NCBI RefSeq assembly: GCF_014696315.1
Contig: NZ_JACJPX010000070.1
Coordinates: 1 to 42,462 of the forward strand
DNA length: 42,462 nucleotides
Source: Calothrix membranacea FACHB-236
Lineage (GTDB): Bacteria > Cyanobacteriota > Cyanobacteriia > Cyanobacteriales > Nostocaceae
Direction: 5' to 3'
Positions 7,138 to 42,462 of this stretch are shown piece after piece. Within the stretch, counting starts at the first letter, position 1, and each line of letters starts with the position of its first letter. A program made the position numbers and the translations under genes. Under the pieces are notes generated by a model, which did no database searches, was not told the DNA's origin, and saw only the letters and a list, made by a program, of their open reading frames with translations.

Positions 7138-7932
7138 ATGCCAGTCGTTTCATTGGCTCAAATGATGGAGTCAGGGGTTCACTTCGGTCATCAGACCCGG
7201 CGTTGGAACCCTAAAATGTCTCCTTACATTTATACTTCCCGCAATGGTGTACACATTATCGACTTGGTGCAAACTGCCCAGTTGATGGAAGATGCATATG
7301 CTTATATGCGTACACAAGCTGAACAAGGGAAAAAATTCTTGTTTGTTGGCACTAAGCGGCAAGCTGCGGGTATTATTGCCCAAGAAGCCAGCCGTTGCGG
7401 TTCCCACTACATTAACCAACGTTGGTTGGGTGGAATGCTGACCAACTGGACAACTATTAAAACCAGAGTAGACCGCCTCAAAGATTTAGAGCGCCGCGAA
7501 GAAACCGGAGCATTGGACTTGTTGCCCAAAAAAGAAGCTTCAATGTTGCGCCGGGAAATGGCGAAGCTACAAAAATATTTGGGCGGGATTAAAACCATGC
7601 GGAAAGTTCCCGATGTTGTGGTGATTGTAGACCAACGGCGGGAATATAACGCAGTTCAAGAGTGCCAAAAATTGGGAATTCCGATTGTATCAATGCTAGA
7701 TACAAACTGTGACCCCGATGTCGTAGATATTCCCATCCCTGCAAATGACGACGCGATCAGATCCATTAAGCTGATCGTCGGCAAATTGGCGGATGCGATT
7801 TATGAAGGTCGTCATGGTCAGCTTGATGCAGAAGATGACTATGAAGATTACGAAGGTGGTGAGGAAGATTACGACTATGAAGAAACTGAGCTAACAGGCT
7901 CATATGCTAGCGAAGAAGACGAAGAAGAATAG
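7138..7932 (+). CDS. rpsB: 30S ribosomal protein S2
   Basis: This is ribosomal protein S2, a component of the small-subunit body and head junction. The sequence is unmistakable: [19 protein letters not shown] near residue 13, [23 protein letters not shown], and [19 protein letters not shown] through [19 protein letters not shown]. At 264 residues it is near the usual cyanobacterial length. The last 35 residues are strongly acidic (runs of D, E and Y), which is common for S2 in this phylum. It is followed by tsf after 144 bp, the classic rpsB-tsf pair. An inverted-repeat leader precedes it and a 12-bp hairpin separates it from tsf, so both initiation and read-through may be controlled. Confidence 0.98.
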
Positions 7933-34133: not shown

Positions 34134-34540
34134 GTATCTCTATAGTCACTTGACCAAAAATATTTCTCAATAATTTAATAGTAACATGGTTTTAAATTTC
34201 AAACCTACTTAAATCACTACGAGTATTAAACAGCTTGATTTTCCATCTGAAAATTTTATCAGGGAAAATAAACATTTAATTTTTTTGAGAAGAAGCAATT
34301 GATAGCTAACTCAGTCCGGAGAAATTTGCAATTTATGCAATAGTTGCTTAATCTTGGATTTTGGATGTAGATATTTAACTAGAAACAGCCGCAATTTGGA
34401 GTTGAACCCACAATTCTTGACTCCTAAAAGTTTCTTCTTTATATATCTTTGTATTTCTTGATATTTTTTCTGGGATTCGACAGTTGATTGACATCAGTAG
34501 GGAATGCGATCGCATCCCCAGCAAGTTCACATTTTCTTTT

Positions 34541-34606
34541 AGTAACGCACCATCTTTGTCGATGCTTACGCTATCGCTAACCCATCCTACAATTTAAGGT
34601 TTACTG
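34541..34606 (-). mobile_element. Truncated copy of the 24495 MITE-like element
   Basis: Read on the minus strand, AGTAAACCTTAAATTGTAGG and onward to AAGATGGTGCGTTAC follows the left half of the element at 24495-24686 with a few substitutions. The TTTATA end and the right half are missing. Confidence 0.6.
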
Positions 34607-34659
34607 AAAGGTAATCTCGGCCTCACAACCTCGGCCTCACAACAATTTAATTAGCAAAA

Positions 34660-34848
34660 GCAAATATTGCTTTCTTAAAATCTCCTTTTGCTTTCTCAAA
34701 AGCTGTTTGTGCTTTCTCATTTCAGTGTATTTAGCAAGCCAAAGCAGATATTGCTTTCTCACAAGCTGCTTTGGCTTTCTCATTTCGGTGTATTTAGCAA
34801 ACCAAAGCAAATATTGTTTTCTCAAAAGTTGCTTTTGCGGGTTAATTT
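34660..34848. repeat. 21-bp array with 63-bp higher-order repeat
   Basis: Nine units of 21 bp occur: type A GCAAATATTGCTTTCTCAAA, type B GCTGCTTTGGCTTTCTCATT, type C CGGTGTATTTAGCAAACCAA (each with one more base). The order B-C-A is repeated, so 34702-34764 and 34765-34827 match as 63-bp units at roughly 85% identity by eye. The 75-codon minus-strand frame at 34637-34864 (repeats of LLRKQYLLWLAKYTEMRK) is probably a by-product of the period being a multiple of three. Confidence 0.75.
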
Positions 34849-35077
34849 GCGTAATTTCTTCCAAAAATCGCAGAATTACTATGTAGCTAAATTTATTTGA
34901 GATTTGCCAAAATTCTCTCAGGCTGATCGATAGGAAATTTTTTTAAGGTAAAGAAGATTAAATCAGTTAATCAGTCAACGGTAAACAGTCAAAAACCTGA
35001 TGGAGTAATTATGCAATTAAACCTGTATTTTTACTTAATTGTTAACTGAGAACCAAATTAGAAGGTGCATCTTAAAT

Positions 35078-35500
35078 ATGGCTAGAAGACAAAGAACTTC
35101 CGATGTGTTAATTAAAGCAGTGCGTCGTGCGGCTGGCATTAAACCAATTGATCCACATTTAGACGCAGGTAATGGATTGACTTTATTTGCCTATTCCAAC
35201 CTGATCGAGACAATGCGAGAGCAAGAAAATAAATACAACAGTGCGCTTGCTAATTTGGATAGGTTGTATACTGAAATGCTGGCAACCGAGCGTCAACTGG
35301 CAGACATGACCGAACACATGCTGATGGGTGTTGCAACTAAATATGGCAAGAGCAGTGTAGAGTATGGTATGGCGGGAGGAGTTCCGAAAAACCAACGCCG
35401 CAAGGGACTGCGAGGCGAATCTGCAATTGAGCCAACTGGGGAAGAAGCAATTATTGCCAGTGTGAATGGCAATGGCAAGGTTAAAAGTCAAAAATTATGA
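35078..35500 (+). CDS. Hypothetical protein, basic and partly coiled-coil
   Basis: I do not recognise a named family for this 140-residue protein. A basic N-terminus (MARRQRTSDVLIKAVRRAAG) is followed by a helical middle with heptad-like spacing (NLIETMREQENKYNSALANL, then YTEMLATERQLADMTEHMLM) and a GGVPKNQRRKGLRGE segment. The basic ends and helical core would fit a small nucleic-acid-binding or structural protein, but that is a guess. I chose ATG 35078 over a TTG at 35039. GAAGG lies 12 nt upstream, a rather long spacing. It stands alone between repeat-rich regions. Confidence 0.6.
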   Translation: MARRQRTSDVLIKAVRRAAGIKPIDPHLDAGNGLTLFAYSNLIETMREQENKYNSALANLDRLYTEMLATERQLADMTEHMLMGVATKYGKSSVEYGMAGGVPKNQRRKGLRGESAIEPTGEEAIIASVNGNGKVKSQKL

Positions 35501-35678
35501 TGATTTTTGGTGGTGCGTTGCGCTGTGCGACAACGCACCCTACGTTGAAGTTTCTTTTGTTGCAGAGATTTAGGGAGTTCTAGAGAAAAAATTATCAAAT
35601 TTATTTAGATGATATTTTTCCCCTGCCCCCTGCTCCCTGCCCCCTTGCCAATAAAGCGATAGTATATTGGGAAGTTCC

Positions 35679-37250
35679 TTACGCCCTTTGTGCGCCTGGT
35701 TGACCGTTTTGCACTACAAAGGAAGCTAGGGTACTAATAACAGCGGTAGGACTAGTAATAGTTGAGACTACCCGGTAATCGCTTTGCCAAAGTTTTGGAG
35801 TGAGTTTGCAACGAACGTAGCCGCGGGATGCACCATCAAAGAATTTGGTGTGGGGATTGTCGATTAATGCGGCTTGAACTGGGGCGATAAATTGGGCGGG
35901 GAAGTCAGAGGAAATAGAAGTTCCAACGAATTCTGTACCAACTGTAATGGAAGCGGGGTTGTTGAAGTCGGTTTTGAGGTCATGCACCCAACTAGAGTGG
36001 ATATCACCAGTAATTACTACTGGGTTGGAAGGTTGACGTTGTTGCAGAAAGTTTAATAGCCGATTGCGCGCTGCTACGTAACCATCCCACTGATCGACGT
36101 TGAATAATCCGATGTCTGGGCTGGGATCAAAATCATATTCAGCTAGCATGGTTTGTTGTGCAATTACATTCCAGCGCGATCGCGATTTATCTAATCCCTG
36201 GAATAACCACTTTTCTTGTTCTTTCCCTGTCATCGTCGCATTGGCATCGAAAGCTTGAACACAACGGGGTTTAAGTCCATCATTACAAGGCTGATCGGTG
36301 CGATACTGGCGGGTATCTAAGACGTTAAACTCCGCTAAATCACCGTAAGTAAAACGGCGATAAAGTTGCATATTTGACTTGGTGGGTAGGGAAGACTCAC
36401 GCAATGGCATATGTTCGTAGTATGCTTGATAAGCATAGGCTCGCCTCGTGATAAATGCTTCCAGGCTTTGATTTTCTTCTGGGATTAAATTAGCGTAGTT
36501 GTTTTCGACTTCATGATCATCCCAAGTTACTATCCAAGGAAAAGCCGCATGAGCAGCTTGCAAATTGGGGTCTGTTTTATATAAAGCGTGACGGTTGCGA
36601 TAGTCAGCAAGGGAGAAGATTTCAGCACTATTATGCTGGCGTGGGCCTCCGGGTTGTGGGCCGTATTCGTAAATATAATCACCAAGATGAACTACTAAGT
36701 CAAGTTCTTCTTTAGCTAAATGTTGAAATGCTGTATAGTAGCCGTTTTGCCAGTCTTGGCAAGAAACAAAAGCGAAGTTGAGTTGCTTGGTAGAACGATG
36801 GAATGCGCTAGCTGTACGAGTCCGCCCAATGGGGCTAAGTTCATTACCTACTCTAAATTGATACCAGTACCAACGCTCAGGCTCTAAACCACGCACATCA
36901 ATATGTACTGAGTGTGCTAGTTCTGGAGTTGCTATGGCTTTGCCTTTTTGGACAACTTTTCTCATATTTTCATCCAGAGCAACTTCCCAACGCACTACAA
37001 TGTTTGCCATCGGCATTCCACCACCGTTCAGCGGATCGGGAGCTAGTCGCGTCCATAAAACAACACCATCTGGTAAAGGATCGCCAGAGGCGACACCAAG
37101 ACTGAAGGGATAACCAGAAAACTTAGTTTTTGCGATCGCTGGACTCCATTGGCTAGTCATCGCCAACCCTGTCAAGAATCCTGCACCTAGCAAAAAACTC
37201 CGCCGTCTGCAACGATTGTTTAGCAGTTGATTGCAATGCATGAATTCCAT
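35679..37250 (-). CDS. phoD: PhoD-family alkaline phosphatase, Tat-exported
   Basis: This 523-residue enzyme of the PhoD metallophosphatase family releases phosphate from mono- or diesters outside the cytoplasm. The N-terminus carries a Tat signal with the twin arginines in RRRSFLLGAGFLTGLAM and cleavage likely after PAIA. Then comes the PhoD N-terminal Ig-like domain (YPFSLGVASGDPLPDGVVLW) and the catalytic domain with SCQDWQNGYYTAFQHL, HLGDYIYEYG, TWDDHEVENNY and ITGDIHSSWVHD, which hold the Fe/Ca ligands. I chose ATG 37250 because GAGGAG is 5-6 nt upstream; a GTG lies two codons earlier. Expression is probably under phosphate control, but I cannot identify a Pho box with confidence. Confidence 0.94.
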   Translation of the reverse strand: MEFMHCNQLLNNRCRRRSFLLGAGFLTGLAMTSQWSPAIAKTKFSGYPFSLGVASGDPLPDGVVLWTRLAPDPLNGGGMPMANIVVRWEVALDENMRKVVQKGKAIATPELAHSVHIDVRGLEPERWYWYQFRVGNELSPIGRTRTASAFHRSTKQLNFAFVSCQDWQNGYYTAFQHLAKEELDLVVHLGDYIYEYGPQPGGPRQHNSAEIFSLADYRNRHALYKTDPNLQAAHAAFPWIVTWDDHEVENNYANLIPEENQSLEAFITRRAYAYQAYYEHMPLRESSLPTKSNMQLYRRFTYGDLAEFNVLDTRQYRTDQPCNDGLKPRCVQAFDANATMTGKEQEKWLFQGLDKSRSRWNVIAQQTMLAEYDFDPSPDIGLFNVDQWDGYVAARNRLLNFLQQRQPSNPVVITGDIHSSWVHDLKTDFNNPASITVGTEFVGTSISSDFPAQFIAPVQAALIDNPHTKFFDGASRGYVRCKLTPKLWQSDYRVVSTITSPTAVISTLASFVVQNGQPGAQRA

Positions 37251-37707
37251 ATTCACTCCTCGTCAGAAAGTTTCTCGGCTTTAACAGCCTGTGTTAGGCA
37301 ACACCAAGAACTTACCGACCTACAATCAAGCCGCGATTAAGATATTGTTAACTTTTCTTTTTGGGCATGGGGGATAGGGCATAGGGCATGGGGAAGAGTT
37401 ACCAATGCCTCATCAGCTAATACGCGTCTAAATTGCACAACTACTAATAAGGGCTGTTGACTGTTGACTGTTGACTGTTAACGGTTAACAGCACCGCCGA
37501 AGTAAGGGGGAGAATAACCTCGCCCACCCACTGATAAAAGTTTCCCTTCGCTTGCAATACTACTCCGTTAAGCGTTTTTAACTCAAAATTTGTTTTGGGG
37601 AAAAGGGAAAAGGTTAAGGGTTAAAGGTTTTTTCTTTACCTTTTCCCATTCCCCTTTTTCCCCTTAACCGACAAGTATTGCAACACATCATACAAAATAC
37701 AAAATGC
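37251..37707. other. Intergenic region with heptamers and a MITE-like element
   Basis: It contains GGGCATA/GGGCATG heptamers (about 37363-37393), three tandem GTTGACT heptamers (about 37453-37478) next to GTTAACGGTTAAC, and the CAATACT-family element at 37555-37680. No gene is visible. Confidence 0.5.
37555..37680. mobile_element. MITE-like element, CAATACT family, second copy
   Basis: CAATACTACTCCGTTAAGCG at the left and ACCGACAAGTATTG at the right enclose a core of GGGAAAAGGTTAAGGG and CCTTTTCCCATTCCCC that matches the copy at 32501-32625 almost base for base (126 versus 125 bp). No target duplication is visible here. The right end is 28 bp from the stop codon of the CTDH gene. Confidence 0.7.
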
Positions 37708-38133
37708 TTAATCGCGACGCATAGCTAGTAACTCTTGGGGAGAGGCTAAGAGTTTAATTTTGGCTTCTACAATTTGGCGTTGTTGATTGAGAATAAATAA
37801 CCAAGTAACATTAACACCACACCAGGATGTGAAGGCTTTTCCTGCTACTTGGACTTGAATTTGCTCGTTTGGCAAAATCTCAATAATTCCTTGCTGCGGT
37901 TCGGCTTTAATACCTTGAGCTTCTTGTTTTAAATAAGTTGCGATCGCATCTGGCCCCACAAAACCAGATTCAAAGGGTGGGTACATAATACCATCTTCAG
38001 CAAACAAGGCAGCTGTTGCCGCAAAATCTCCAGCGTTCAAAGCTTGAAAGTAATTGAGAATGCTGGGTTCTGTAATTCCCTCAATGGAGAATTCTTCGAT
38101 TTGGGTTGTTGCTTTCAATTCAGCAGCTGTCAT
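37708..38133 (-). CDS. OCP C-terminal domain homologue (CTDH carotenoid protein)
   Basis: This 141-residue NTF2-fold protein matches the C-terminal domain of orange carotenoid protein. SILNYFQALNAGDFAATAAL aligns with OCP VLKYMDNLNANDFDALISL, YPPFESGFVG with QPPFQRPIVG, and LLASPQELL with LLASPKELL. The residues that hydrogen-bond the keto-carotenoid in OCP appear kept: Tyr28 (OCP Tyr201) and Trp111 (OCP Trp288), plus Trp104 (OCP Trp277). Cys105 sits where the disulfide-forming cysteine of Anabaena CTDH is found. CTDH proteins are dimers that bind and deliver carotenoids to HCPs. No HCP gene is adjacent, but one lies 2.7 kb away at 40809. A plain SnoaL-type enzyme is the alternative, but the terminal LLASPQELL makes that unlikely. 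Confidence 0.88.
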   Translation of the reverse strand: MTAAELKATTQIEEFSIEGITEPSILNYFQALNAGDFAATAALFAEDGIMYPPFESGFVGPDAIATYLKQEAQGIKAEPQQGIIEILPNEQIQVQVAGKAFTSWCGVNVTWLFILNQQRQIVEAKIKLLASPQELLAMRRD

Positions 38134-38400
38134 AAAATTACCTTGGTTTAGGCTAGCTGAACATCAATATTCATAGCAAAAGCAGCTAAAAGAAAGCTGC
38201 TTTTGGTATATATTTCTGGCTTTTGCCTAAGTATTTCTTTAGATGGAGTCCAACAATGCGTAATTACGAATTACGCATTACGAATTAATAAACCGCAAAT
38301 AAAAGTTACAAATGATATGGATAGTAAATTAAATACCTATGTATTGACCGTGTAGATTAGAATTGGAGTGCCGCCGATTGGGCAAATTTAGATAAGAGAA
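38134..38400. other. Divergent spacer between CTDH and queG
   Basis: It holds heptamer repeats of the GAATTAC type (38258-38288, CGTAATTACGAATTACGCAT). Promoters for both flanking genes must lie here but I cannot place them. Confidence 0.4.
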
Positions 38401-39375
38401 ATGAATAACTCTGGCATAACCACGAGTGATGTGGTAAAGAAAAAAGCGCAGGAGTTGGGATTTCATAAAGTAGGAATTGCGGCTGTAGATGGGGTAGATG
38501 AAACAGCCGCGCAGCATTTGCAAGCCTGGTTAGCGCTGGGTTATCACGCCGAAATGGCATGGATGGCTAACCCCAAGCGTCAGGATATTCGCTTAGTCAT
38601 GCCAGAAGCGCGATCGCTGATTTGTGTGGCGCTAAATTACTACACACCACATCAACGTCCCCCTGGAAAGGAATATGCCAAGATTTCTCGCTATGGTTGG
38701 GGACGAGATTATCACAAGGTAATGCATAAGAAACTTAAGGCACTAAATAATTGGGTACAATCACTGAGTGAAAATACTCAAGCTCGTTATTATGCGGATA
38801 CAGGCCCAGTACAAGATAAATTATGGGCGCAAAAATCTGGTATTGGGTGGATTGCCAAGAATGGCAATGTAATTACCAGGGAATATGGTTCTTGGGTATT
38901 TTTAGGAGAGATTATCACCAATCTGGAACTAGAGTGCGATCGCCCAGCTACAGAACATTGTGGCACCTGTACGCGCTGTCTAGAAGCTTGCCCTACTGGT
39001 GCAATTACTCAACCTTATGTAGTAGATGCTAATCGCTGCATTGCGTATCATACAATTGAAAATCGGGCAGAACAATTACCAGCAAAGGTTCAATCCCACT
39101 TACAAGGCTGGGTTGCAGGGTGTGATATCTGCCAAGATGTTTGTCCGTGGAATCAACGTTTTGCAAAAAGCACAGATGTGACAGAATTTAATCCTTATCC
39201 TGGGAATCTGGCACCGAAGCTGATAGAATTAGCAGAAATCTCAGATGAGGAGTGGGAGCAACAATTTACAGCCTCAGCCTTGCGACGGATTAAACCAGAA
39301 ATGTTAAGACGTAATGCCCGTGCTAATCTAGACGCATCAAGGCAACAGAATGACGCAGACAGTGATTATTTTTGA
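38401..39375 (+). CDS. queG: Epoxyqueuosine reductase
   Basis: QueG carries out the last step of queuosine synthesis, reducing epoxyqueuosine to queuosine in tRNA with a cobalamin cofactor. The sequence shows the cobalamin-binding reductive domain with Asp133 in YADTGPVQDK, then two [4Fe-4S] clusters: CGTCTRCLEACPTGA (Cys187, 190, 193, 197) and CDICQDVCPWNQ. The C-terminus is short (ending near ASRQQNDADSDYF), consistent with the shorter QueG class lacking the full HEAT-like repeats. The 3' end overlaps the HAD gene by 26 bp, so the two are translationally coupled. It depends on cobalamin, whose synthesis gene cobB is at the other end of the window. Confidence 0.95.
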   Translation: MNNSGITTSDVVKKKAQELGFHKVGIAAVDGVDETAAQHLQAWLALGYHAEMAWMANPKRQDIRLVMPEARSLICVALNYYTPHQRPPGKEYAKISRYGWGRDYHKVMHKKLKALNNWVQSLSENTQARYYADTGPVQDKLWAQKSGIGWIAKNGNVITREYGSWVFLGEIITNLELECDRPATEHCGTCTRCLEACPTGAITQPYVVDANRCIAYHTIENRAEQLPAKVQSHLQGWVAGCDICQDVCPWNQRFAKSTDVTEFNPYPGNLAPKLIELAEISDEEWEQQFTASALRRIKPEMLRRNARANLDASRQQNDADSDYF

Positions 39376-39991
39376 TTTTGATGGCACGATTGCAGATACA
39401 GTAGACGCTCTCGTAAGCATTGCTAATCGTTTGGCTGTAGAATTTGGTTATGTCCAAATTAGCCAGCAGGAGCTAGCTCTCCTGAAAAACTTAACATCTA
39501 GGGAAATTATTAAATACTCAGGTATCTCTGTATTTAAAATACCTTTTTTGGTCAAGAAAGTTAAAGGAGAATTAAAAAATAAGATTCACGAATTTAAACC
39601 TATTCCCGGCATCAAAGAAGCCTTAATACAATTAAAATCTCAAGGTTATCATTTAGGAATTATTACTTCTAATTCTAAAGATAATGTGACCGAATTCCTC
39701 AAAATTAATGAGCTAGACAATTTATTTGATTTTATCTACTCAGGGGTCACAATTTTTGGTAAAAAGACTATTATTAATAATGTTTTAAAGCAAAGGCAGC
39801 TAAAACCGCAAGAAGTGATTTATGTTGGTGACGAAACTAGAGATATAGAAGCTTCTAAGAAAGCAAATATTCAAGTAATCGCAGTCACCTGGGGTTTTAA
39901 TTCCCGAGAAATTTTAGCCAAACAAAAACCAGATTTTTTAATTCACCATCCTAGTGAGCTTTTGACGGTGATAAATAGGAATAATTCGTAA
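39350..39991 (+). CDS. HAD-superfamily hydrolase (phosphoglycolate phosphatase-like)
   Basis: This 213-residue HAD phosphatase has all four motifs: DFDGTIADT (nucleophile Asp9, Asp11), ITSNS (motif II), GKKTIINNVLK as the motif III lysine region, and YVGDETRDIEASKKA (motif IV acidic residues). A helical cap domain (about residues 16-85) is of the C1 type seen in phosphoglycolate phosphatase and beta-phosphoglucomutase. The substrate is not certain; 2-phosphoglycolate is plausible in a photorespiring cyanobacterium. It starts inside queG (26-bp overlap), which implies coupled translation. After it, GTAATTC heptamers begin. Confidence 0.9.
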   Translation: MTQTVIIFDFDGTIADTVDALVSIANRLAVEFGYVQISQQELALLKNLTSREIIKYSGISVFKIPFLVKKVKGELKNKIHEFKPIPGIKEALIQLKSQGYHLGIITSNSKDNVTEFLKINELDNLFDFIYSGVTIFGKKTIINNVLKQRQLKPQEVIYVGDETRDIEASKKANIQVIAVTWGFNSREILAKQKPDFLIHHPSELLTVINRNNS

Positions 39992-40191
39992 TTCGTAGTG
40001 TGTAATTCGTCGTTAAAGATGTTACCACCACAATAGAAACAGCACAAAGTAAATTGGAAAGTTAATGTAGTTGTAGGTAACATGGCTGTACCTACAGAAA
40101 TACACTGCATATTCGTAATTACATTCTGTAAATAACACCAACCATTATGGTGCAGCCTTTATAGGTCTAGTGTTTTAATATTTGTAATTAC

Positions 40192-40216
40192 GAATTACGA
40201 ATTACGAATTACGAAT
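40192..40216. repeat. GAATTAC heptamer tandem repeat
   Basis: TTACGAA units in a row (about four copies) lie directly next to the stop codon of the acidic small gene at 40219. The same heptamer occurs at 26146-26160 and 38258-38288. Confidence 0.7.
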
Positions 40217-40218
40217 TA

Positions 40219-40593
40219 TCAACTTTTTGATTGACCTTTTTCAAAAGCTTTTTGCACTAGATCATCATCGATATTAGCAACACCTTCATTTCTAGAACCT
40301 GCAACATCCTTAGCCATATCTGCAAAATCATCAGGATTACCAGTTGCTTGGGTTTCGAGTCTAGTTTCTTTTGGCTTGGAAACTTCATGTTGAGGCGCTG
40401 TTGCTGCTTCAGCTGCTTTTGCACCTTCACCTGTACGATCAATTTCACTTACACTCAGTTTTTGTGCAGCAGCATAATCAGCTTCAAAATCTACTTGAGG
40501 CGCTTTTTCTTCGCCAGCAGCTATGTTTTCTGCTGCTAACTGTGCGTCATGGGTAGGTGCTTCATTAACATTAGGCTTTACTTCATCAGGCAT
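40219..40593 (-). CDS. Acidic, probably disordered small protein
   Basis: This 124-residue protein is rich in Ala, Glu, Asp, Lys and Gln and poor in hydrophobic residues (EVKPNVNEAPTHDAQLAAEN, then EEKAPQVDFEADYAAAQKLS). The C-terminal third has a conserved-looking GNPDDFADMAKDVAG followed by NIDDDLVQKAFEKGQ. It is probably intrinsically disordered with one short amphipathic helix. I do not recognise the family. AGGAG stands about 6 nt before ATG 40593, so it is likely translated. It is divergent from the HCP gene with a shared 215-bp spacer, so the two may be co-regulated. It is not a shadow of another frame. Confidence 0.7.
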   Translation of the reverse strand: MPDEVKPNVNEAPTHDAQLAAENIAAGEEKAPQVDFEADYAAAQKLSVSEIDRTGEGAKAAEAATAPQHEVSKPKETRLETQATGNPDDFADMAKDVAGSRNEGVANIDDDLVQKAFEKGQSKS

Positions 40594-40808
40594 AATTGAC
40601 TCCTAGGTATTTTTTCGCTTGCTGTGGTCATCGTATCAAAGCGCTATGTAAAATCATTGGCCCCCTGGGAGATATTCTTACTTCTATTAAAAGATAGATA
40701 AAAACTGCAAATTGCAATAAATAAATCTCCTTCTCTTGGAAGTAGATTATTATTCTGAAACTCTGTTAACCCTTAGTTTGATATGTGAAATTGCCTTGGA
40801 GATAAATA
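40594..40808. promoter_or_regulatory. Divergent promoter region, acidic protein/HCP
   Basis: This 215-bp AT-rich spacer serves two divergent genes, each with a good ribosome-binding site (AGGAG for the minus gene, TTGGAGAT for the HCP gene). Promoter elements cannot be fixed by eye. Confidence 0.45.
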
Positions 40809-41339
40809 ATGACTGCTAGCCAAGATAAAAGCGTTCCTCAAGCTCTAAATAATGAAACTCAAAAAGCTGTAGAAGCTTTTAATAAATTAGATACCGATGC
40901 TAAATTAGCATGGTTTTATTTAGTTTATGAAAAGATGGGAGATTCAATTACTCCAGCTGCACCTGCTGCTGCAGAACCAAATTTAGCACCAATTTTGCTA
41001 GGAGATTATTTAGAATTATCAGATGACGAACAATTGGCAATTATGCGCCAAATTGTTAATGGTGAAGCTAGCGATTATTCTCGTGCCTATGGTGCTTTAA
41101 AAGAAAATAATCAGCTGTTAGTTTGGTATGCTTGGGCTGTAGCAATGGGGGATAAAGTAGTCGATTTACCCGATGATTACGAAACTACAGATACAATTGA
41201 CAATTTACTTTCTCAACTCGAGGGATTAGAGTTTGAGCAACAAATGTCTGTGCTGCGAACAATTGTAGGAAACATGGGCTACAGTGATGTGCAACCTGTA
41301 GAAACCCAAGCACAAACTGGTAAAACCTCAAGTTTGTAA
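40809..41339 (+). CDS. Helical carotenoid protein (HCP, OCP N-terminal domain homologue)
   Basis: This 176-residue all-helical protein matches the N-terminal domain of orange carotenoid protein along its length. AFNKLDTDAKLAWFYLVYEK corresponds to RFSQLNAEDQLALIWFAYLE, then MGDSITPAAPAAAE to MGKTLTIAAPGAAS, and LEGLEFEQQMSVLRTIVGNM to IQGLESGQQITVLRNAVVDM. The carotenoid-contact residues OCP Tyr44 and Trp110 are kept (Tyr40, Trp106), as is the Arg155 equivalent (Arg150); OCP Trp41 is replaced by tyrosine. HCPs bind a keto-carotenoid and, depending on type, quench singlet oxygen or phycobilisome energy. I cannot assign the clade. It starts after a GGAG at a good spacing and is divergent from the acidic small gene. 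A CTDH gene lies 2.7 kb away. Confidence 0.9.
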   Translation: MTASQDKSVPQALNNETQKAVEAFNKLDTDAKLAWFYLVYEKMGDSITPAAPAAAEPNLAPILLGDYLELSDDEQLAIMRQIVNGEASDYSRAYGALKENNQLLVWYAWAVAMGDKVVDLPDDYETTDTIDNLLSQLEGLEFEQQMSVLRTIVGNMGYSDVQPVETQAQTGKTSSL

Positions 41340-41345
41340 GCTGAT

Positions 41346-41402
41346 ATTTGTCATTCGTCATTTGTCATTCGTCATTTGTGAAAGCAATTGACAGATGACA
41401 AA
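41346..41402. repeat. ATTTGTC heptamer hairpin after the HCP gene
   Basis: ATTTGTCATTCGTCA and, downstream, TGACAGATGACAAAT are inverted copies (13 of 15 pair). No T-run follows, so it is not a classic terminator. Confidence 0.5.
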
Positions 41403-41422
41403 TCAATATGTGTTTTAACGTA

Positions 41423-41535
41423 ACTAGTACAGCAGGGCGTAAATAAACAGACCATTCAAAATCCGCAAAACGCTTACTGTGTCTTAATTTTGAATTTTGA
41501 ATTTTGAATTTTGAATTCCGCCTTGCGGTACTAGT
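41423..41535 (+). mobile_element. MITE-like element, ACTAGT family, copy D (113 bp)
   Basis: It has the same length and plan as copy A at 10324: ACTAGTACAGCAGGGCG at the left, four TTTTGAA heptamers on the right half, and CGCCTTGCGGTACTAGT at the right end. The right end is 3 bp from the stop codon of the ATPase gene. Confidence 0.75.
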
Positions 41536-41537
41536 CC

Positions 41538-42263
41538 CTAAGACACCGCCATCTGGGTTAAATCCGCTGGGGTGAGGTGAGAGTGAATAACTTCACCGTC
41601 GCGGAACCAAACTATGCGCGCAGTTTGACGCGCCACATCTGGTTCATGGGTAACCATGACAACTGTAATTCCGCTGGCGTTTAACTCGCTAAAGATATCC
41701 ATAACTTCTTGGGTAGTGCGAGAATCGAGTGCGCCAGTGGGTTCATCTGCTAACAGAACGACGGGACGGTTGACAATGGCGCGTGCGATCGCTACTCTTT
41801 GTTGTTGTCCGCCTGATAGTTGTGTGGGTTTGTTATTGAGACGCTTTTCTAAGCCTACTTTAATCAAAGCTTCCATAGCGCGATCGCGTCTTTCTTGAGC
41901 ATTAATTCCCGCATAAGCCATTGGTAACATGACATTTTCTAGGGCTGTCAGTTGGGGTAATAAGTGGAATTGTTGGAAGACAAACCCTAGTTTAATATTG
42001 CGAATATGCGCCAATGCTTTATCATTCATTTGCGCCACATCGACGTTATCTAAATAGTAGCTACCAGAGGTAGGACGATCTAGACAGCCAATAATATTCA
42101 TGGCTGTAGATTTACCGGAGCCAGAAGGCCCCATAATTGAACAATATTCCCCTTCATCGATAGCCAAATTCACATTATTAAGTGCTTTGACTTCCGTTTC
42201 GCCGCTACCGTAGATTTTAAATATATTTTCTAATCTAATAATTGAAGATTTGTTATTTGCCAT
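41538..42263 (-). CDS. MacB/LolD-type ABC transporter ATPase
   Basis: This 241-residue ABC ATPase is of the MacB/LolD type. Walker A is GPSGSGKS, the Q-loop region FVFQQFHLLPQLTALENVML, the signature LSGGQQQRVAIARA, Walker B VVLLADEPTGALD, and the H-loop VMVTHEPD. It is a single-domain ATPase that drives an FtsX-like permease, with mechanotransmission rather than classic transport. The permease and adaptor are not in the window and would be expected upstream (to the right). The ATG at 42263 follows a Shine-Dalgarno-poor leader; the N-terminus MANNKSS is partly of the ATGACAA heptamer type. Confidence 0.93.
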   Translation of the reverse strand: MANNKSSIIRLENIFKIYGSGETEVKALNNVNLAIDEGEYCSIMGPSGSGKSTAMNIIGCLDRPTSGSYYLDNVDVAQMNDKALAHIRNIKLGFVFQQFHLLPQLTALENVMLPMAYAGINAQERRDRAMEALIKVGLEKRLNNKPTQLSGGQQQRVAIARAIVNRPVVLLADEPTGALDSRTTQEVMDIFSELNASGITVVMVTHEPDVARQTARIVWFRDGEVIHSHLTPADLTQMAVS

Positions 42264-42462
42264 TTGTGATTTCTTTTATGCTTCTCATCCTTCTTCTAGG
42301 ATAGTATTTGCATTTACTGATTAACCAAGCAAGACAGTAAATAAGCTGTTACGCATTTAAACCCGGATTTCTCACAAGTGAGGAAAAATCACTTGGATAA
42401 GGAAAATTTAGGATCAAGGAATTGATACAACATCAAATTGCCCGATTAAGCAGTAACAGCTA
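42264..42462. other. Right-edge region without a gene
   Basis: This is AT-rich DNA upstream of the ATPase gene. I see no long frame, repeat or RNA gene. The region may hold the ATPase promoter or the space to a partner gene beyond the edge. Confidence 0.35.

Follow-up and report, generated by a model that had tools for sequence, protein, structure and literature searches.

Carotenoid-protein genes of the window

The window, i.e. the whole stretch of 42,462 nucleotides analysed here (contig NZ_JACJPX010000070.1 of Calothrix membranacea FACHB-236), carries towards its end the genes for a CTDH and for the helical carotenoid protein HCP3, which are two known types of carotenoid-binding protein in an old conserved neighbourhood; they lie 2.7 kb apart on opposite strands (Table 1). 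A first-pass annotation of this DNA had read the pair as a split orange carotenoid protein (OCP) locus, possibly a rearranged or newly assembled two-part photoprotection system. We conclude instead, with considerable confidence, that the locus has the conserved Nostocaceae-type order (HCP3 <-> acidic protein)-HAD-queG <-> (HCP4)-CTDH, in which <-> marks divergent genes, and that it is without HCP4 in the present lineage, most likely because of a deletion. Observed here were the identities of the genes, their conserved order, and a stretch of 632 bp containing HCP4 that is present in the closest relative and not in the window. Between CTDH and HCP3 the annotation had placed queG, a HAD phosphatase and a small acidic protein; queG and the HAD protein, a HAD_2 hydrolase, have profile matches and the acidic protein none.

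Table 1. Features of the CTDH-HCP3 locus, with related acidic genes from other genomes
Feature	Position	Strand	Basis
CTDH, Cys type (clade 2 CTDH / CCP2), 141 aa	37708-38133	-	phmmer, Cys105, four-residue gap, ccp2 primers
AATTACG heptamer repeat at the site of the missing HCP4	38262-38287		TRF, 3.7 copies
queG, epoxyqueuosine reductase, frequent CTDH neighbour	38401-39375	+	TIGR00276, 329 bits (cut-off 200)
HAD_2 hydrolase, overlapping the end of queG	39350-39991	+	PF13419, E 1.5e-55
Acidic protein, 124 aa, All4782-like, divergent from HCP3	40219-40593	-	open reading frame; found beside HCP3 in relatives
Intergenic region between the acidic gene and HCP3, containing conserved blocks	40594-40808		28 aligned intergenic sequences, out of 74 measured
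HCP3, helical carotenoid protein, 176 aa, conserved tail ending QTGKTSSL	40809-41339	+	Carot_N, clade, primers
ABC transporter ATPase, 241 aa, downstream of HCP3	41538-42263	-	open reading frame; named by eye from motifs
Contig end beyond the match to G150, with an inverted-repeat-like end common to the start of contig C11	42362-42462		repeat seen by eye
Acidic genes, truncated or diverged, in family genomes without HCP3	L200:4911-5051; L201:5702-6043; L202:4075-4437		matches to the acidic protein

Both reading frames have the coordinates and strands that the annotation gave, and its assignment of the two products to the OCP C-terminal-type and Carot_N families stood. For CTDH the best structure match was the All4940 chain 6s5l (phmmer, E 2.4e-60), whereas the best OCP chain reached 3.4e-31; the Pfam match of the protein, to SnoaL/NTF2, is too broad to decide its identity by itself. 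HCP3 matches Pfam Carot_N over residues 12-158 (E 1.1e-57; 194.5 bits, the cut-off being 25) and is a single-domain helical carotenoid protein, i.e. Carot_N without the OCP C-terminal domain. The residues that the annotation had listed as kept carotenoid contacts, a role that we also assume for them, are indeed conserved in alignments to the OCP1 of the same genome: W104 and W111 of CTDH align with OCP1 W279 and W290 (presumably W277 and W288 in Synechocystis numbering) and CTDH Tyr28 stands in an aligned Tyr column, while Y40, W106 and R150 of HCP3 align with OCP1 Y44, W110 and R155. At the position of OCP Trp41, which the annotation had not mentioned, HCP3 has Tyr37, which is invariant in 19 HCP3 rows, and the HCP1, HCP2 and HCP4 sequences compared retain Trp there; in the tail of HCP3, Q167, G171, T173 and S175 are invariant in 19 aligned rows.

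The annotation had also proposed a phylogeny of the two proteins and a search of the genome for other carotenoid proteins. In the tree of the HCP clades, which was unrooted, took in neither Anabaena Alr4783 nor HCP5-HCP9 and contained PDB chains that we take to be HCP1, HCP2 and HCP4, the window HCP fell in a 16-row HCP3 clade (support 100/100) apart from HCP1, HCP2, HCP4 and OCP. Published qPCR primers of Fremyella diplosiphon (PMC8739951) were matched to loci of the strain's own genome. The hcp3 primers fit the window HCP, and the ccp2 primers the window CTDH, with 2 + 2 mismatches each; at four other loci tested in the genome the ccp2 primers had 7-11 mismatches and the two sets together 6-11. 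The clade is called HCP3 because the published hcp3 primers match its window member, and the tree and the primers together rule out HCP4 as the identity of that protein. As a control, primers of other genes mostly matched their own loci; hcp2R had no good site (8 mismatches at the strain's HCP2, 7 in the window), and ocp1R was also within 3 mismatches of OCP2. CTDH has Cys105 and is four residues shorter than OCP1 after W104, and this combination of cysteine and shortening is described as the hallmark of the Cys-type CTDH clade (PMC6123778, PMC7512017). On these two features and an NTF2-like domain nearest to CTDH, the protein is a clade 2 CTDH, or CCP2. Because the hcp3 and ccp2 primers match with 2 mismatches each, the strain is related to F. 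diplosiphon (Tolypothrix PCC 7601) but not identical with it.

The genome search found five Carot_N genes, i.e. two full OCPs (OCP1, adjoined by FRP, and OCP2), HCP1 (contig C106), HCP2 (contig C11) and HCP3, together with two CrtW-family ketolases (one translated from an internal start) and one CrtR. The same set of two OCPs, HCP1-3 and one CCP2 is reported for Tolypothrix PCC 7601 (PMC7512017). A split OCP, with both halves derived from OCP domains, does not agree with these results, since the HCP3 clade stands apart from the group of OCP and HCP4 (100/100, unrooted tree), the window CTDH matches other CTDH much better than it matches OCP, and the genome has OCP1 with FRP, OCP2, HCP1, HCP2 and CrtW besides.

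Gene order among relatives and the queG-CTDH interval

We compared the locus across 118 genomes of the family as defined by the search tool, using E<=1e-40 for HCP3 and E<=1e-36 for CTDH. HCP3 was present in 69 genomes and CTDH in 101, including all 69 with HCP3 and 32 of the 49 without it. In 57 of the 69 the two genes are divergent and 2,415-4,027 bp apart, and this common order does not support the rearrangement or new assembly that the annotation had considered possible. A set of 75 named loci, some ending at contig ends, were found with patterns from the window HCP3 and are therefore biased to close relatives; after removal of CTDH and HCP4 matches below 55% and ABC matches below 60%, CTDH was upstream and divergent of HCP3 in 48 of them, and queG and HAD were present in 55. 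The ABC transporter ATPase occupies the same place in many Nostocales-type named loci and not in Microcoleus-type ones. One of the 75, L170, is not HCP3, leaving 74 named HCP3 loci; its protein (L170:10034) is HCP-like, with 58% to HCP1, and comes from a metagenome bin labelled Chloroflexaceae, which may contain a misbinned contig.

In 19 of the 57 linked family genomes HCP4 is found no more than 1.5 kb from CTDH, the other 38 being without it by the cut used. The HCP4 rows were picked by hand, removal of full-length OCP frames (322-353 aa) leaving 52 of 78 genomes, and one retained second HCP4 copy contains stop codons. In the closest relative examined, G150 (CTDH 97%, HCP3 98%), HCP4 lies between queG and CTDH: the window matches G150 up to 38273 and again from 38286, and between these points G150 holds 632 bp with HCP4 (L194 2744-3375). 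L096 and L100 also have HCP4 in this interval, and L097 and L099 do not. At E<=1e-50 no HCP4 was found elsewhere in the strain's own assembly, so at this cut-off the HCP4-CTDH gene pair is absent from both window and genome. Since G150, L096 and L100 have the gene in the interval and the strain's own genome has none, HCP4 was most likely deleted from the window lineage, and its absence, most simply explained by a deletion, would be the actual change in the window. The missing stretch in L097 has different ends, which suggests an independent HCP4 loss.

Two results go beyond the first-pass annotation, i.e. the acidic protein as the constant neighbour of HCP3 (described below) and a queG-CTDH interval that holds HCP4, OCP or nothing. 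Among 58 short CTDH loci (the best-scoring ones, the strain's own included), queG is divergent near CTDH in 50, several of those without queG being cut by contig ends or flank length; for the 24 of the 58 that come from other families of the order the figure is 18. Read by hand, the table of the 58 shows the interval occupied by an HCP4-like gene at 19 loci and by a full OCP at 3. All of nine loci from three other families, chosen for an OCP close to CTDH, had the order queG <-> OCP-CTDH; in eight of these, from genomes of two families (L220-L227), a full OCP occupies the place that HCP4 has in some Nostocaceae. In one of the nine, from a single draft genome (G063 C147, L219:1484-2839, plus strand), OCP and CTDH appear to be fused beside queG in one 452-aa frame with the order Carot_N, OCP-type C-terminal domain, CTDH-type domain; the second domain is nearest to OCP (74%) and the third to CTDH (60.6% to the L220 CTDH, 54% to that of the window). 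This frame suggests that OCP-CTDH fusion at this place can happen; a viral-contig search with the fusion protein confirmed no relative. A sister relation of the OCPs of the interval to HCP4 found no clear support in the N-domain tree (83/61 for the OCP group); the rows of this tree that bear the name HCP for L096, L100, L117, L131, L194 and L228 represent HCP3, not HCP4.

At the other side of the locus, the window up to 42361 and contig C11 from 102 both meet G150 (L194) at 7558-7562, so that HCP2, which is on C11, probably lies just beyond the window end. HCP2 neighbours this locus in G150, in G229 and in 3 of the 75 named loci. The unmatched 101-bp ends of the two contigs (the window end in Table 1 and L199:1-101) suggest an inserted element as the cause of the assembly break between the ABC gene and HCP2. 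Heptamer and 21/63-bp tandem repeats, most of them intergenic, are numerous at window positions 34435-42272.

The acidic neighbour of HCP3

The acidic protein (pI 4.41) had no family match at E<=0.1 in the first scans and no credible Pfam, NCBIfam, PHROGs or structure match at the thresholds used. Its dN/dS values of 0.12-0.33 in 7 pairwise comparisons argue that it is a real gene, and a charge-hydropathy test suggests that the protein is disordered. It was also considered as a classical hydrophilin, and by the usual criteria for these it is slightly short on glycine (7/124, own count) and hydropathy. The gene is divergent from HCP3 and less than 500 bp away in 73 of the 74 named HCP3 loci (L163 is without it, and in L158, one of the 73, the frame has just 58 residues), and each of the 30 family HCP3 loci inspected, the top 30 of the 69 by score, has it as well. 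Among the loci seen here it is the most faithful neighbour of HCP3.

In a class-wide sample of 291 genomes (E<=1e-50 for HCP3, E<=1e-6 for the acidic protein) HCP3 was found in 64, the acidic protein in 72 and both in 53 (Fisher p 6e-31, uncorrected for kinship). Where both occur, the two genes are adjacent and divergent in 43 genomes and on different contigs in 10. At these thresholds HCP3 is alone in 11 of its 64 genomes, 9 of them from one genus and with weaker HCP3 matches, and the acidic protein is alone in 19 of 72; 9 of the 72 acidic matches contain stop codons and several are short. Family genomes without HCP3 have an acidic gene that is truncated (G077, ~47 residues) or diverged (55%, 45%).

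The spacing between the acidic gene and HCP3 is 199-235 bp, or 354-393 bp in Microcoleus-type loci. A consensus scan of this region found a -35/-10-like TGGTCA...TAAAAT at 40625-40654, and F. diplosiphon hcp3 is listed with the same -35 hexamer and a TAAAAT core (PMC8739951 Table 3); promoter-like sites in 37400-41600 as a whole are fewer than in shuffles (7 vs a mean of 11.3).

Anabaena All4782 is described as a protein of 123 aa with a pI of 4.3 and the N-terminus SEEIKPNSMEA, which migrates at 25 kDa rather than 13, was recovered in a cell-surface fraction and is reported to be drought-induced (PMC4103569). It is like the acidic protein in length, pI and gene position, its N-terminus resembles the (M)PDEVKPNVNEA of the window, and on these grounds the two are probably orthologs. 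The exact All4782 N-terminus pattern occurred in 0 of 217 family genomes, and Anabaena PCC 7120 was not locatable that way. We found no paper, among those covered, dealing with both all4782 and alr4783, and an earlier notice in Lopez-Igual 2016 or Melnicki 2016 is possible. The acidic protein gives a testable lead on the role of HCP3 in drought and salt stress.

Function, alternative explanations and known systems

Anabaena CTDH is known to take up carotenoid and to donate it to HCP1 and HCP4, the disulfide dimer being no donor, and the authors of that work consider that no HCP can do without CTDH (PMC6123778). Singlet-oxygen quenching is reported for HCP2 and HCP3, and hcp3 and the CTDH gene are both down in Chlorogloeopsis fritschii under UV-B (PMC7029182); alr4783 and all4940 behave alike in the Anabaena pacR study, and F. 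diplosiphon hcp3 and ccp2 fall in one expression class (PMC8739951). By analogy, a carotenoid donor/acceptor relation of CTDH and HCP3 is plausible. If the proteins behave as their published orthologs do, CrtW would make a keto-carotenoid, and CTDH, a redox-gated Cys-linked dimer, would extract it from membranes and hand it to HCPs; in this strain CTDH would most likely load HCP3, as well as HCP1 and HCP2, with a canthaxanthin-type carotenoid. HCP3 would then serve as a stress-induced soluble singlet-oxygen quencher and not as a phycobilisome quencher, and the acidic protein, sharing its intergenic region, would probably be co-induced. The HCP4 route to the phycobilisome would be lacking in this strain, with OCP1 and OCP2 in its place, and the window raises the question of what CTDH serves once HCP4 is gone.

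Several points weigh against this picture of the locus. Among the 69 HCP3 family genomes, 12 do not have CTDH close to HCP3 (in 8 the two are on different contigs, in 4 widely separated on one contig), and because the fetched flanks of Microcoleus-/Leptolyngbya-type named loci show no CTDH, linkage of HCP3 and CTDH is not required. In F. diplosiphon the response of ccp2 differs from that of the hcp genes at 15 C and with DCMU, and nitrogen limitation has a significant effect on hcp3 but not on ccp2 (PMC8739951). We did not meet direct CTDH-to-HCP3 transfer in those parts of the literature on the family that were covered. HCP4 could also have been inserted into the relatives instead of deleted here, which is less likely. 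It is quite possible, if somewhat improbable, that the proximity of HCP3 and CTDH is a by-product of two old pairs, queG-CTDH and HCP3-acidic protein, standing side by side in Nostocaceae with no functional coupling; queG does accompany CTDH in the 18 of 24 loci of other families, and HCP3 keeps its acidic neighbour in named loci in which CTDH and queG were not found. Against such independence speak the presence of CTDH in every HCP3 family genome vs 32 of 49 without HCP3, and the parallel changes of hcp3 and the CTDH gene in three species, the F. diplosiphon exceptions aside.

A rearranged or newly assembled OCP-like system, with CTDH and the HCP as a photoactive heterodimer, is very improbable: both parts are present 2.7 kb apart, and HCP-CTDH heterodimers have been discussed (PMC7512017), but the arrangement is common to 57 of 69 HCP3 family genomes, HCP3 is not in the OCP-like clade, the genome has two full OCPs, and genes on opposite strands have no common transcript. 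That the acidic protein is a dedicated partner of HCP3, e.g. an apoprotein stabiliser or anchor, beyond a co-induced stress protein, seems rather unlikely. The adjacency in 43 of 53 genomes (the other 10 having the genes on different contigs), the reduction of the acidic match in G077, which has no HCP3, and the conserved tail of HCP3 would suit a partner, whereas the 19 acidic genomes without HCP3, the 11 HCP3 genomes without the acidic protein and the 9 matches with stop codons would not; charge and hydropathy suggest disorder only, and All4782 was in a cell-surface fraction (PMC4103569), while an HCP would be cytosolic.

Compared with the conserved order and HCP4 deletion that we prefer, a wider proposal is tentative and on the doubtful side. 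The queG-CTDH interval may be an ancestral carotenoid-protein slot, filled by HCP4 or a full OCP or emptied, and may be the site where OCP arose by HCP + CTDH fusion or where OCP and HCP4 were exchanged, while HCP3 and the All4782-like protein would be a separate, unrecognised two-gene stress module. HCP4, OCP or nothing at the same place bears on where OCP came from. A non-exhaustive literature search found no mention of the slot, including in the available part of an OCP-evolution paper (PMC10172135), in which the words neighbo-, synten- and adjacent are absent.

With OCP1, OCP2 and OCPx the window pair has the N- and C-terminal domain families in common, but it consists of two genes on opposite strands with no linker, and HCP3 stands outside the OCP and HCP4 groups. 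Its CTDH is like the clade 2 CTDH / CCP2 proteins All4940 and Tolypothrix CCP2 in Cys105, the four-residue gap and sequence, and its HCP3 is like that of F. diplosiphon / Tolypothrix PCC 7601 in matching the hcp3 primers and in its clade, which stands apart from HCP1, HCP2, HCP4 and OCP. Anabaena Alr4783, which we take to be HCP3, is encoded beside all4782 by consecutive gene numbers and presumably, from the Anabaena naming convention, on the opposite strand, i.e. with a small acidic divergent neighbour as at the window HCP3; in gene number it is far from the CTDH gene all4940, in contrast to the 2.7 kb in the window. The annotation was right that an HCP adjoins the Anabaena CTDH, but that neighbour is HCP4 and not HCP3 (PMC6123778), and HCP4 is absent at the window CTDH. 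In C. fritschii PCC 6912 the nearness of HCP3 and HCP4-CTD has already been remarked on (PMC7029182); a window-like gene order there would agree with accession numbers that end in 653, 657 and 658, with HCP4 retained, unlike in the window.

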